Positions 1-50,804 of a stretch of DNA of 64,000 nucleotides are shown here, one piece after another. The first letter of the stretch is position 1. Each line of letters begins with the position of its first letter. The stretch covers positions 1 to 64,000 of the forward strand of contig ONIP01000014.1 in assembly GCA_900317955.1 (NCBI GenBank). The letters are read 5' to 3'. This DNA comes from an uncultured Bacteroidales bacterium. Lineage in GTDB: Bacteria > Bacteroidota > Bacteroidia > Bacteroidales > P3. The notes under the pieces are model-generated. The model was given only the letters and a program-made list of their open reading frames with translations, was not told the DNA's origin and searched no databases. The translations under genes and the position numbers were made by a program.

Positions 1-30
1 GGATGAATTATCGCAATGACAAATTCCAGT

Positions 31-60
31 TTGTAGGGGAGTTTTGAGGCTCCCCTACAA
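31..60. repeat. Perfect 11-bp inverted repeat (hairpin)
   Basis: Bases 31-41 pair perfectly with 50-60 around an 8-nt loop. Neither side is followed by a clear T-run in the direction of transcription, so it is not a typical terminator. It lies just upstream of the Y-RNA-like gene and could be a processing or boundary structure. Its role is unknown. Confidence 0.6.
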
Positions 61-64
61 AAAT

Positions 65-107: not shown

Positions 108-230
108 AAGCAAGTGCCTTAGAAAAGATTTACTTCGCCAAGTGTCGCTGGTTCGAGCCCAATCTTGGATTCATCCAAGTGGCTTGGATGGTAGAGCATT
201 GTGCAGTCTTTTCGCCTTTTCGCCTTGCTT
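108..230 (+). ncRNA. Candidate bacterial Y RNA with permuted tRNA-like module
   Basis: The ends pair: 108-114 (aagcaag) with 224-230 (cttgctt), and 122-128 (gaaaaga) with 207-213 (tcttttc). Inside, tRNA parts occur in permuted order. A T-arm has loop ttcgagc at 152-158 closed by 149-151/159-161. An acceptor-like helix pairs 164-168 with 175-179 and is closed by its own loop instead of having free ends. The two-base tg linker follows, then a D-arm with stem 182-185/194-197 and loop ggatggta. This is the layout known for YrlA-class bacterial Y RNAs, where the Ro-binding stem takes the place of the anticodon arm. The Ro60 gene starts 300 bp downstream, which supports the call. I could not locate the Ro-binding consensus or a promoter with confidence. 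The alternative is degenerate tRNA debris, but the ordered permutation and long-range stems argue against that. Confidence 0.7.
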
Positions 231-235
231 GATAT

Positions 236-309
236 TGCGGAGTGGAGCAGTTGGTCAGCTCGCGAGTTTCATAAGCTCAAGGTCGCAGGTTCGAGTCCTG
301 CCTCCGCTA
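236..309 (+). tRNA. tRNA with CAT anticodon, initiator-like but atypical
   Basis: A 74-nt cloverleaf can be drawn: acceptor tgcggag/ctccgct, D-stem gagc/gctc, anticodon loop ttcataa (CAT), and T-stem gcagg/cctgc with loop ttcgagt. Position 1-72 is a T-T mismatch and position 11-24 is A-T, both typical of bacterial initiator tRNAs. However, the anticodon stem (cgagt/gctca) has a C-A mismatch, a G-T wobble, and lacks the three G-C pairs that initiators need for P-site binding. No CCA is encoded. It lies 5 bp after the Y-RNA-like gene and before rsr. It may be a specialised or decaying initiator tRNA. Confidence 0.7.
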
Positions 310-313
310 CAAA

Positions 314-403
314 GAGCAGAATGCCGTAGGGAACGGATACTTCATCAACGTCTCTTAGGGGAACATTTTGACTGCCCCAGACCGTTTTCCGCTTGTCGCT
401 TCT
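314..403 (+). other. Possible structured RNA segment upstream of rsr
   Basis: Bases 315-320 (gcagaa) can pair with the ttctgc near 398-403. Inside, ggaacgg can pair with ccgttttcc with a small bulge, and gggg pairs with cccc in an inner hairpin. It could be a second small RNA or a folded 5' leader of rsr. No homology is recognised, and chance folding cannot be excluded. Confidence 0.25.
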
Positions 404-454
404 GCAGCTTAAGGCGGTTGCCGTAGTGAAGAGTTACTTCTATTTATTCAAAGT

Positions 455-475
455 ACAACTTATTTGTTGTTTTTT
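455..475 (+). terminator. Short hairpin with T-run between RNA genes and rsr
   Basis: acaac (455-459) pairs with gttgt (466-470) and is followed at once by five more T. It is a short AT-rich stem, so at best a weak terminator or attenuator separating the RNA genes from the rsr-rtcB unit. Confidence 0.3.
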
Positions 476-533
476 CTCTCCACGCCTGTCGCACCGTTTT
501 TTTGAAAACATACAACAATAAATATTTACGAAG

Positions 534-2072
534 ATGATGTACAATTCGATTTTGAAGGAAGAAAAATGCATAAAGAACCATGAGGGAGCCAAGGCATACG
601 CCATGAGTCCTGAACTGGAGCTTTATACTGCCGTAGTGACCGCATCGCTCAGCGACACAAACTACGAAAAGCAGGATGAGCGGGTAGAACGTATCGCCCG
701 GCTCATAGGCAAGGTTTCGCCAGAGTTTGTGGCACGTCTCGCTGTCTACACCCGCACCGAGATGCATCTTCGCAGTATCCCGTTGCTGCTTTTGGTTGAG
801 CTGGCGAAGGTTCACAACGGCGATGGCCTTGTGGCACGTGCTGTTGAAAAGACTGTCCTTCGTGCCGACGAGATTATGGAGTTGTTGATATGTTACCAAT
901 GGCGCAATCCGTCCTCTGACCCTCACAAGAAACTGGGCAAGCTTTCCCGACAAATTCAGAACGGTCTCCAAGGTGCCTTCAACCGATTTGATGAATACCA
1001 GTTTGCCAAGTACGACCGCGACAACCTCGAAGTAAAGCTCCGCGACGCACTGTTTCTGGTTCACCCCAAAGCAAAGGACGAGCAGCAACAGGCACTCTTC
1101 GACAAGATAGTGAATCGGCAACTGGAGACTCCCTATACTTGGGAGACCGAGCTCTCGGCTTTAGGTCAACAAAAATATGAGTCTGATGAGCAAAAGAGAC
1201 AAGCATTTGGCGAAAAATGGGAAGAGTTGATTGAGAGTGGCAAACTGGGTTATATGGCCTTGATGCGCAACCTGAGGAATATGCTCCAGTCGGATGTCTC
1301 GCTGCCACAGATGATGAATGTGGCCAGCCGTTTGTCCAACGCCGAGCAGGTGGAGAAGTCAAAGCAATTGCCATTCCGCTATCTGTCGGCCTACAGAGAG
1401 ATTGAGAAAGTGGATAATGTCCATACGGCAATGCTATTAACTGCATTGGAAAATGCGGTGAAAGCATCCGCACAGAATATAGAAGGCTTTGATGCCAACA
1501 CCAAGGTATTGGTTGCCGCCGATGTATCGGGTTCAATGCAACAACCCGTATCGAAGAAAAGCTCTGTTCAATATTACGATATAGCCATCCTGCTCTCCAT
1601 GCTTTTGAAAAGCAAGTGCAAGAGCGTTGTTAGCGGTATGTTCGGCGACACATGGAAAGTGATGAATCTCCCTCAAGACAACATCCTGGCCAACACCCTT
1701 GAGATGCATCGCCGCGAAGGAGAAGTAGGATATTGCACCAACGGATACAAGGTCATTGAATGGTTGATAAAGAAGAAGATGCCGATGGACAAGGTGATGA
1801 TTTTCACCGACTGCCAGATGTGGGACAGCGACCACTATTACTTAGGATACAACGAAAAGGAAATCAAGGATAGCTGGCATACCTACAAGTCGATATTCCC
1901 TGAGGCCAAACTCTACCTCTTCGACCTTGCAGGCTACGGACAAATGCCGTTGAGTCTTGCAGAGAAGGACGTCTATCTTATTGCCGGATGGAGCGACAGG
2001 ATATTTGAAGTCCTTTCTGCCATCGACAACGGAGAGGATGCACTGAGTGTGATTAACAAGATTGACGTTTAA
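534..2072 (+). CDS. rsr: Ro60/Rsr-like TROVE and vWA domain RNA-binding protein
   Basis: Ro60 orthologs form a ring of HEAT-like repeats that binds misfolded RNA ends in its cavity and Y RNA on its outer face. In bacteria they work with exonucleases or sit in RNA-repair operons. At 512 aa this one has the normal length. Residues about 15-310 look like the helical TROVE region. The C-terminal vWA domain has an intact MIDAS motif D330-V-S-G-S334 and a second acidic strand end (FTDCQ, D426). The start is the first of two adjacent ATGs, behind an acgaag ribosome-binding site. The stop is 5 nt before rtcB, so the two are co-transcribed and probably coupled. A Y-RNA-like gene lies upstream. Codon use is balanced, unlike the C-ending bias of the genes after 4.6 kb. 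Confidence 0.93.
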   Translation: MMYNSILKEEKCIKNHEGAKAYAMSPELELYTAVVTASLSDTNYEKQDERVERIARLIGKVSPEFVARLAVYTRTEMHLRSIPLLLLVELAKVHNGDGLVARAVEKTVLRADEIMELLICYQWRNPSSDPHKKLGKLSRQIQNGLQGAFNRFDEYQFAKYDRDNLEVKLRDALFLVHPKAKDEQQQALFDKIVNRQLETPYTWETELSALGQQKYESDEQKRQAFGEKWEELIESGKLGYMALMRNLRNMLQSDVSLPQMMNVASRLSNAEQVEKSKQLPFRYLSAYREIEKVDNVHTAMLLTALENAVKASAQNIEGFDANTKVLVAADVSGSMQQPVSKKSSVQYYDIAILLSMLLKSKCKSVVSGMFGDTWKVMNLPQDNILANTLEMHRREGEVGYCTNGYKVIEWLIKKKMPMDKVMIFTDCQMWDSDHYYLGYNEKEIKDSWHTYKSIFPEAKLYLFDLAGYGQMPLSLAEKDVYLIAGWSDRIFEVLSAIDNGEDALSVINKIDV

Positions 2073-2077
2073 AGAAG

Positions 2078-3253
2078 ATGGAAAAAGTAGAAAAGATAGG
2101 AACAACGGTGGTCAAAATGTGGCTTACCGACGTTGAAGAAAATGCATACAGGCAGGTTGCAAATCTGGCCTCACTGCCTTTCGTTTATCACCACATTGCC
2201 CTTATGCCCGACTGCCACGCTGGAATGGGTATGCCCATCGGGGGTGTGCTGCCCACAAAAGATGTGGTTATCCCCAATGCTGTGGGCGTTGACATCGGCT
2301 GCGGTATGCGTGCCGTGAAGACCAATGTACGTGCCGCCATGATTGAGGAGGAATTTCTTCGCAAAATCATCATGCGTGGCATTCGCGAGCGTATCCCGTT
2401 GGGCATGGACCACCACGAGGAAAAGCAGGATGAAAAATATCTACCCACAGGTTTTGATATTGACAGGCTGCCCGTGGTGAAAAGGCAATATGTGTCCATC
2501 CATCATCAGGTGGGCACTCTTGGCGGGGGAAACCACTTTATCGAACTCCAAAAGGACGAGGAGGGCTGGCTGTGGATTATGATTCATTCCGGCTCCCGCA
2601 ACCTTGGTAAGCAGGTGGGCGACCACTACAACGAACGGGCCAAATGGTTCAACGGACTCTATTATAGCAAAGTCGAACCGGAGTTGCAGCTCTCCTTTCT
2701 CCCTTTGAAGACACCTGAGTTCAATAGTTATTGGGATGAAATGACCTACTGCGTTGCCTTCGCCAAATGCAACCGAAGCCTGATGATGGAGCGTATCGAG
2801 GAGGTAATCTTCGACGCCCTGCCCGATGTGGAGTTCGAACCAGCCATCGACATTGCCCACAATTACGCCGCTTGGGAGAACCATTTTGGCCACAACTGCA
2901 TTGTGCACCGAAAGGGAGCCGTACGTGCAAGAGAAGGAGAAACCGGCATCATCCCCGGCTCGATGGGCACCAGTTCCTACATTGTCGAGGGTCTTGGCAA
3001 CCCCGACAGCTTCATGAGTTCCTCCCACGGTGCAGGTCGTGCGATGAGCCGCACCCAAGCCATAAATACACTCTGTCTGGACGACGAAATAAAGAAGATG
3101 GATGCCAAGGGCATCGTCCACGGACTACGCAACCAACGCGACCTCGACGAAGCCGCCAGTGCTTACAAAGACATTGACAAGGTGATTGCACTTGAAGCAG
3201 ACCTGGTGAAGATAAAGACCAAACTGGAGCCAATCGCCGTTATAAAAGGATAG
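2078..3253 (+). CDS. rtcB: RtcB-type 3'-phosphate RNA ligase
   Basis: RtcB joins RNA 2',3'-cyclic phosphate or 3'-phosphate ends to 5'-OH ends, using GTP and Mn2+. Conserved blocks are present in order: CHAGMG, VGVDIGCGM (metal ligands D72 and C75), GGGNHF (N152), HSGSR (H170), HNYAAWE, GIIPGSMGTSSYI, and SSHGAGRAMSR with H317 as the guanylylated histidine. At 391 aa it is one of the shorter bacterial forms. It begins 5 nt after rsr behind an aaagaag ribosome-binding site. No rtcA or archease gene is in the window. With Ro60 and a Y RNA next to it, it most likely re-ligates tRNA or rRNA cut by ribotoxins. Confidence 0.95.
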   Translation: MEKVEKIGTTVVKMWLTDVEENAYRQVANLASLPFVYHHIALMPDCHAGMGMPIGGVLPTKDVVIPNAVGVDIGCGMRAVKTNVRAAMIEEEFLRKIIMRGIRERIPLGMDHHEEKQDEKYLPTGFDIDRLPVVKRQYVSIHHQVGTLGGGNHFIELQKDEEGWLWIMIHSGSRNLGKQVGDHYNERAKWFNGLYYSKVEPELQLSFLPLKTPEFNSYWDEMTYCVAFAKCNRSLMMERIEEVIFDALPDVEFEPAIDIAHNYAAWENHFGHNCIVHRKGAVRAREGETGIIPGSMGTSSYIVEGLGNPDSFMSSSHGAGRAMSRTQAINTLCLDDEIKKMDAKGIVHGLRNQRDLDEAASAYKDIDKVIALEADLVKIKTKLEPIAVIKG

Positions 3254-3392: not shown

Positions 3393-4196
3393 ATGGATAT
3401 GGATAAAGAAATAATGGATAAACTCCACGGTATTGAGCAGGAAAACAACTTTACAATACTCTTAGCTGTAGAATCAGGCAGTCGCGCTTGGGGCTTTGAG
3501 TCAAAGAACAGCGACTGGGATGTGCGATTTATCTATGTTCACAAACCCGAGTGGTACTTCATGGTGGATCCGCAACGCGATGTAATTGAGTTGATGGAGG
3601 GAAATATCGACATAGTGGGTTGGGAACTGCGAAAGGCTTTGGCATTGCTCAAACGAAGCAATCCATCCCTGCTGGAATGGATTCACTCGCCGATTGTCTA
3701 TTATGCAGACGAGGAGTTCATGGGAAGGATGCAGTGTGCGGCCACCCAATTCAATAATCCTATTGCATCCATGTACCACTATAACCGTATGTTCAACAAA
3801 CACAATCAACATTATCTGCAACGAGAGAACTGCGACATGAAACGATTCTTATACTACCTGCGTGGAATACTGGCTTGCAAATGGATCGAAGCCAACAAGA
3901 CACTCCCGCCTGTGAAATTCGACGATTTGGTAAATGCCACCATAGAGTATGAGAATCTGCGGACAAGGATTGACGACTTGATACGAATGAAGAAAAAGGG
4001 AGAAGAACACGGCTTGAGCGTAGTGGATAGCGCGTTAATGGATTATGCCCGTAACCTTGCGGACTACTACAATGAGAAGATTGGAGACTTCCGTCCCGAG
4101 TTGAGAGACAGACCGTCCACTGTACTGGATGCCCTACTTTATGACATGGTATTCTCACATAACAAAGAAAATCAACGGCAAAAAGCATCGGATTAA
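3393..4196 (+). CDS. COG3541-type predicted nucleotidyltransferase
   Basis: The 267-aa protein opens with a polymerase-beta-like nucleotidyltransferase signature, G29-S30-R31-A-W-G, followed by S40-D41-W42-D43. The two aspartates are the expected metal ligands. The remainder is helical and matches the predicted nucleotidyltransferase family COG3541 (YcgL type), whose substrates are not established. It is the third protein gene of the block, 139 nt after rtcB. The context suggests a role in RNA end processing, for example adding or modifying nucleotides at damaged 3' ends before or after RtcB sealing. That role is inference. The start is the first ATG of two close in-frame methionines. Confidence 0.8.
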   Translation: MDMDKEIMDKLHGIEQENNFTILLAVESGSRAWGFESKNSDWDVRFIYVHKPEWYFMVDPQRDVIELMEGNIDIVGWELRKALALLKRSNPSLLEWIHSPIVYYADEEFMGRMQCAATQFNNPIASMYHYNRMFNKHNQHYLQRENCDMKRFLYYLRGILACKWIEANKTLPPVKFDDLVNATIEYENLRTRIDDLIRMKKKGEEHGLSVVDSALMDYARNLADYYNEKIGDFRPELRDRPSTVLDALLYDMVFSHNKENQRQKASD

Positions 4197-10765: not shown

Positions 10766-10839
10766 GGCGGGATAGCTCAGCTGGTTAGAGCGCTGGATTC
10801 ATAACCCGGAGGTCATCAGTTCAAGTCTGATTCCCGCTA
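10766..10839 (+). tRNA. tRNA with CAT anticodon (Met, or Ile2)
   Basis: 74 nt. The acceptor ggcggga pairs with tcccgct (first pair G-T), the D-arm is gctcagctggttagagc, the anticodon loop is ttcataa, and the T-arm is atcag-ttcaagt-ctgat. No CCA is encoded. The anticodon stem has an A-C mismatch next to the loop. CAT could be elongator Met or lysidine-modified Ile; I cannot decide between them. Confidence 0.9.
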
Positions 10840-10846
10840 CATTTTT

Positions 10847-50653: not shown

Positions 50654-50683
50654 TTGATAATTTCAAAAAAAGTAGTACTTTTG
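50654..50683 (+). promoter_or_regulatory. Promoter of the SRP RNA gene
   Basis: TTG (50654-50656), 19 nt, TACTTTTG (50676-50683). The RNA starts about 5 nt after the -7 box. Confidence 0.8.
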
Positions 50684-50687
50684 CAAT

Positions 50688-50784
50688 TGGGTAAGTCTTA
50701 TACGACCAGCTCCCATTGAATCCCCCAGGGTAGGAATACAGCAAGGGTGTTTGGTTGTAGCGGTGCGATATAAACAGCTTACCC
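50688..50784 (+). ncRNA. ffs: Small signal recognition particle RNA (4.5S RNA)
   Basis: The ends pair (gggtaag 50689-50695 with cttaccc 50778-50784). The apical part has the SRP Ffh-binding core in its Bacteroidota form (cccccaggg-taggaa-tacagcaaggg). A T-run of 12 follows at 50785-50796, completing termination. About 97 nt, the normal bacterial size. Confidence 0.88.
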
Positions 50785-50804
50785 TTTTTTTTTTTTGTGT
50801 GTAT

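Follow-up and report, generated by a model that had tools for sequence, protein, structure and literature searches.

A predicted YrlA-type Y RNA built on a permuted tRNA, at the head of a putative RNA-repair operon in a Bacteroidales bacterium

The element at positions 108–230 of the window (the whole 64-kb stretch of DNA that was analysed), here called Y1, is almost certainly a Y RNA. Judged from its sequence, it belongs with the known YrlA-type Y RNAs, a previously known kind of RNA and no new class, and it is the first of three predicted Y RNAs heading the putative RNA-repair operon rsr-rtcB-rlaP (Table 1). The best explanation as a whole, to which we assign a probability of roughly 0.8, is that Y1 is a YrlA-type Y RNA heading an array, which would be bound by Rsr and would dock PNPase as a quality-control tether.

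Table 1. Positions of the Y RNAs, their parts and neighbouring features in the window, and of D-loop-opened Y RNA copies in related rsr loci.
Feature	Position	Strand	Evidence or remark
Perfect hairpin (TTTGTAGGGGAG..CTCCCCTACAAA)	30–61		directly upstream of Y1; no T-run
Y1, YrlA-type Y RNA with permuted tRNA module	108–230	+	model R1 96.2 bits, E 5.5e-22; covariation
Y1 basal stem, 5′ strand	109–117	+	pairs with 222–229, U115 bulged; 6/8 pairs with compensatory changes
Conserved basal motif, UGCCUUAG in the window	115–122	+	the 30 remaining copies of the alignment have UGCCGUAG or UGUCGUAG; presumed site of Rsr contact
Inner stem, 5′ strand 125–129 (with 206–210), then conserved UACUUCG 131–137	125–137	+	alignment, pair counts
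Anticodon-stem stub, 3′ side, 3 bp	139–141	+	pairs with 199–201; covarying CAA/UUG, CAU/AUG, CGU/ACG
T-arm, loop UUCGAGC	147–163	+	one C·A mismatch, 148–162
Acceptor-type helix closed by 2-nt loop	164–179	+	6/6 counted pairs with compensatory changes among relatives
D-arm, GG in loop	182–197	+	pair counts, alignment
Inner and basal stems, 3′ strand	206–229	+	alignment, pair counts
Extra initiator-like tRNA(CAU) between Y1 and Y2	236–310	+	ARAGORN; Rfam tRNA 58.5 bits
Y2, second Y RNA, basal stem as Y1, GGGG/CCCC insert	315–406	+	R1 38.4 bits, E 1.2e-7; alignment A4
Y3, third Y RNA, basal stem as Y1, simple variable insert	412–499	+	R1 41 bits, E 2.7e-8
rsr, Ro60 orthologue (TROVE + vWA_Ro60)	534–2072	+	PF05731 E 1.6e-27, PF25045 E 1.5e-8
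rtcB, RNA ligase	2078–3253	+	PF01139 E 1.6e-111
rlaP, RNA-repair nucleotidyltransferase family	3393–4196	+	PF10127 E 6.9e-76
Ordinary CAU tRNA (Ile2-like)	10766–10840		
Bacteroidales small SRP RNA	50682–50788		
D-loop-opened copy, L010	2215–2347		
D-loop-opened copy, L016	821–953		
D-loop-opened copy, L018	245–378		
D-loop-opened copy, L019	3262–3395		
D-loop-opened copy, L020	3371–3503		
D-loop-opened copy, L022	3672–3804		
D-loop-opened copies, L033	3129–3264 and 3724–3856		
D-loop-opened copy, L034	988–1124		
D-loop-opened copy, L039	3850–3982		
D-loop-opened copy, L047	3333–3466		
D-loop-opened copy, L070	6261–6398		

Structure of Y1

The preliminary description had proposed closing stems, a T-arm, a sealed acceptor helix, a two-base linker and a D-arm, with the tRNA 3′ half preceding the 5′ half as in YrlA. 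All of these parts are present, and the alignment confirmed the order of T-arm, sealed acceptor and D-arm; a 3-bp stub (139–141/199–201) can be added to them. The closing stem consists of 109–114/224–229 and, beyond the bulged U115, 116–117/222–223. The inner stem comprises 122–123/212–213 and 125–129/206–210. The acceptor hairpin (164–170/173–179) is closed by the loop UC and followed by the linker UG at 180–181. In tRNA terms, the element thus runs from the 3′ side of the stub through the variable loop (GUGUC), the T-arm, the acceptor 3′ strand and the loop to the acceptor 5′ strand, the linker (positions 8–9), the D-arm, position 26 and the 5′ side of the anticodon-stem stub. Read in this way, the predicted module corresponds to a tRNA that is cut open within the anticodon stem, with the basal stem of the Y RNA standing in for the anticodon loop. 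A small loop closes off the acceptor end, so that charging would be impossible. At 123 nt, Y1 lies inside the range of 90–150 nt of bacterial Y RNAs (PMC8394870). The folding energy of the single sequence is unimpressive (z = −1.4) and does not set the element apart.

A Ro-type basal motif (UGCCGUAG...UACUUCG / UUUUCGcc.uGUnGCC), which the preliminary description had been unable to place, is present in Y1 with one substitution. Its parts are UGCC(G)UAG at 115–122 and UACUUCG at 131–137, facing the opposite 3′ strand at 206–229, and the motif is common to the elements near Ro genes in Deinococcus and phages. In the bacterial Y RNAs that have been studied, Rsr binds at the basal stem (PMC4726728). 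From its location in the basal stem, we infer that the motif contacts Rsr in Y1 as well.

Covariation among relatives

A DNA BLAST of the Y1 element in 60 relatives matched only Y1 itself, because its sequence drifts too fast. We therefore rely on 80 rsr loci that were fetched by protein, with rsr as the anchor. With a structure descriptor, the combination of T-arm, acceptor hairpin, UA and D-arm was detected close to rsr in many of these loci. The preliminary description had staked its reading on covariation across relatives, and this is what the alignments contain. RNAalifold recovered the described structure from 31 aligned copies, with double changes that keep the pairing in 23 of 30 pairs. 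A fuller count of 33 pairs, which includes the 3-bp anticodon-stem stub, was made over 31 homologues from rsr (Ro60) loci, and 26 of the 33 pairs showed double (compensatory) changes. Overall, 96.6% of the cells were paired, against 78.3% with shuffled partners and ~44% when the partners were slid; none of 500 shuffles reached the observed value of paired cells or the number of double changes. In the basal stem, six of eight pairs covary and 98.4% of the cells are paired. The window copy itself forms 32 of the 33 consensus pairs, the sole failure being the C·A at 148–162 in the T-stem.

Distribution of the element

The covariance model R1 was built from 26 relatives; both the window and L030, the relative closest to it, were left out. 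In the 64-kb window this independent model gave no significant match beyond 108–230, 315–406 and 412–499. Its match to Y1, together with the covariation, supports the earlier proposal of a bacterial Y RNA built on a circularly permuted tRNA. In the 80 rsr loci R1 found 272 matches, every one on the rsr strand. A survey of 296 Bacteroidota genomes, in which a strong match was defined as an R1 hit at E 1e-9 or better and rsr was scored by TROVE, showed 20 genomes with both the RNA and rsr, 4 with rsr only and none with the RNA only (TROVE in 24). Among the matches listed, 28 of 29 share a contig with TROVE within ~3 kb, and the exception (G706:C216) is found at a different contig's end.

R1 also matched beside Ro genes on a Deinococcus gobiensis plasmid (82 bits), in Caulobacter phage CcrColossus (98 bits for the best of five strong copies), on a Rhodococcus plasmid, in an Arthrobacter phage and in a gut phage. 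A motif scan of viral contigs was not used, since by a rough estimate chance matches dominate. In the CcrColossus record, a tRNA-Gln at 2131–2198 lies inside a full Y RNA match at 2126–2292, and is probably a mis-annotation.

The preliminary description had called for a search with the YrlA covariance model. Rfam YrlA (RF02553) does match the window at 121–217, but with 27.1 bits (E 0.0011) it stays under the gathering score of 69. This model also matches ordinary tandem tRNAs in the source genome, with up to 41 bits (C20:10298–10413, C40:170442–170559), and is therefore weak evidence for Y1 by itself. It reaches gathering in only 2 of 395 Bacteroidota genomes. The R1 matches outside the window largely coincide with Rfam YrlA sites, including two Bacteroidota genomes above gathering. 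The Rfam vertebrate Y RNA was not among the matches up to E 10 for positions 1–540. The suggestion that Y1 might represent a divergent class of Y RNA finds no support, as the basal motif is present, and R1 matches the Ro loci of Deinococcus, Rhodococcus and phages and overlaps Rfam YrlA hits that reach gathering.

The Y RNA array and the RNA-repair operon

As the preliminary description had recognised, Ro60 is the next protein gene. Between Y1 and rsr lie a tRNA and the two further Y RNAs Y2 and Y3, which that description did not contain. Y2 carries no tRNA-like module in the window, and covariation is weak in its stem, which hardly varies among 11 sequences. Y3 shows compensatory changes in 8 of 14 basal-stem pairs over 24 sequences. 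Base 1 of the window is the first base of its contig, and hence the array may extend further upstream, as it does in L030.

The embedded tRNA retains U1·U72 and A11:U24, and is without the GGG/CCC anticodon stem and without an encoded CCA. Comparison with the other CAU tRNAs makes it the fourth in the genome, next to an elongator Met (L095), an initiator with GGG/CCC anticodon stem and encoded CCA (L113) and the Ile2-like tRNA at 10766. A tRNA of this type holds the same slot in L019, L020, L021, L023 and L030, with paired stem changes, and it thus looks maintained rather than debris. It may be speculated that a repair operon would be well served by an additional initiator whose anticodon arm is altered. 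In two further loci (L047, from 3620; L025, from 375), the T-stem of the embedded initiator-like tRNA is interrupted by ~78 nt, and the joined flanks restore GCAGGTTCGAGTCCTGC. This interruption is intron-like and adjoins an RNA ligase gene.

The locus can be compared with several known systems. In Salmonella YrlA and RF02553, a T-arm, a sealed acceptor helix and a D-arm likewise sit on a long basal stem, and the RNA adjoins rsr in an RNA-repair operon. However, RlaP instead of RtcA follows RtcB in the window, and the Y RNAs, accompanied by a tRNA, stand upstream of rsr. The Deinococcus Y RNA of RYPER (Rsr-Y RNA-PNPase) also neighbours a Ro60 orthologue, as does the 82-bit element of the D. 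gobiensis plasmid. It comes from another phylum and tethers PNPase, as Y1 may do. In the same phylum, Y RNAs have been recovered with Ro60 in particles of Bacteroides thetaiotaomicron (Greiling 2018, cited in the review PMC11277228); here the comparison is with their description in that review. Permuted tRNA genes and two-piece tmRNA share with Y1 the swapped order of the tRNA halves, but Y1 differs from them in having no CCA end, a loop-sealed acceptor, a Ro-type basal stem and no coding part.

Possible function of Y1 and alternative explanations

In RYPER, the basal stem of the Y RNA binds Rsr while the tRNA-like part binds PNPase (PMC8394870). By analogy with the cases of Deinococcus and Salmonella, the basal stem of Y1 would bind the Ro60 ring (Rsr), and the tRNA-like part would dock an effector, most likely the exoribonuclease PNPase, the gene for which is encoded in the source genome. 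The tRNA-like part may be recognised by tRNA-modifying enzymes, too: DusA and TruB both modify YrlA (PMC8394870), and their target loops are present in Y1. Acting in this way, Y1 would tether and gate a machine that controls the quality of damaged structured RNAs, cleaved tRNAs in particular, in parallel with repair by RtcB. The rsr-yrlBA-rtcBA operon of Salmonella responds to cleaved tRNAs (PMC7790460). Having lost its anticodon loop, Y1 itself should be immune to anticodon nucleases. We lean towards PNPase tethering as the mechanism, with the reservation due to a mechanism carried over from distant species.

A serious, if rather improbable, alternative is that the tRNA-like module acts as a decoy, either as a competitive inhibitor of anticodon nucleases or by keeping tRNA-processing enzymes occupied, while Rsr would do no more than stabilise the RNA. 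Such a role has been suggested for Salmonella YrlA (PMC7790460), and it would agree with the other mimics in relatives, one of which is a tRNA whose anticodon arm is intact. Y1, however, lacks the anticodon loop that such nucleases cut.

Somewhat less probable than the decoy is that Y1 is a decaying, non-functional copy in this genome. It departs from the other copies at four conserved places: a U for the near-invariant G of UGCCGUAG (UGCC-U-UAG), the linker UG for UA, a G for A at tRNA position 14, and the C·A pair in the T-stem. In the nearest relative, L030, all four have the usual form. The window copy may thus be relaxing, or the assembly may be wrong at these places. On the other hand, nearly all of its consensus pairs still form, its score is 96 bits, and Y2, Y3 and rsr are intact.

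We regard as slightly less probable again that the Y RNA-like elements act in cis, as leaders on the rsr-rtcB mRNA, and control the operon when Rsr or tRNA enzymes bind them, instead of being separate small RNAs. Their consistent location on the rsr strand would fit with this, as would the Y3 type, which in many loci stands ~120 nt ahead of the start of rsr. Yet some distant loci, Flavobacterium among them, have the elements downstream of rsr, every unit has a closing stem of its own, and related Y RNAs occur elsewhere as stable, free molecules.

Finally, that Y1 is the debris of two tandem tRNA genes, in which a 3′ half and the next 5′ half stand in permuted order by accident, can be rejected despite a genuine tRNA near Y1 and the 41-bit Rfam YrlA match to ordinary tandem tRNAs (C20:10298–10413), since halves of different tRNAs would share no covarying acceptor helix, whereas all six counted acceptor pairs and both basal stems covary, and the full-length matches in the loci and genomes surveyed occur only beside rsr.

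Other predicted mimics in related rsr loci

In relatives, a second class of Y RNA occurs in at least 13 places, where the insert resembles a tRNA opened in the D-loop with the anticodon arm intact. It has U at position 33, and the anticodon triplets vary. A ten-sequence alignment (A3) showed double changes in 12 pairs, including all 5 anticodon-stem pairs, and a strict cloverleaf descriptor found 13 copies on the rsr strand and none on the other strand. The D-stem varies as well (GAAC/GUUC, AAGC/GCUU, GAGC/GCUU). The class rests on A3 and the descriptor; a MAFFT alignment (A6) misplaced one subgroup. ARAGORN labels some of the copies tRNA-Leu or tRNA-Arg.

At two separate loci (L066, 3216–3238; L072, 2929–2947), the Y RNA insert carries the strand of 23S rRNA helix 69–71 (CCTAAGGTAGC). 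Identity to the E. coli 23S stretch (~1913–1935) is 21 of 23 bases in L066 and 17 of 19 in L072. The score of L066 exceeded 200 of 200 shuffles; that of L072 fell just below the best shuffle, but it concerns the same rRNA site. Large tRNA clusters mixed with Y RNAs were also observed inside rsr loci (L033, 5807–6968; L034, 3294–3867; L066, 6730–7149).

Possibly, at a little under even odds, the rsr loci of Bacteroidota are cassettes of several Y RNAs that combine one Ro-binding handle with differing mimics (an anticodon-stem-opened tRNA, a D-loop-opened tRNA and, in two loci, the 23S helix 69–71 strand) and that include an initiator-like tRNA dedicated to them. In that case, the Ro particle would act as a programmable machine, for quality control or as a decoy, in which each RNA module presents another class of substrate.

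Bacterial Y RNAs are poorly catalogued: the threshold of Rfam YrlA finds so few in Bacteroidota, while the model trained on Bacteroidota is strong in 20 of 296 genomes, all with rsr. The model and the motif make such RNAs findable, also in those bacteria of the gut that have Ro60 particles under discussion in lupus (PMC11277228). The arrays of the relatives make the rsr locus more interesting than Y1 alone, and more so if the mixed mimicry holds. With differing modules on one handle, it becomes testable what the upper part of a Y RNA chooses.
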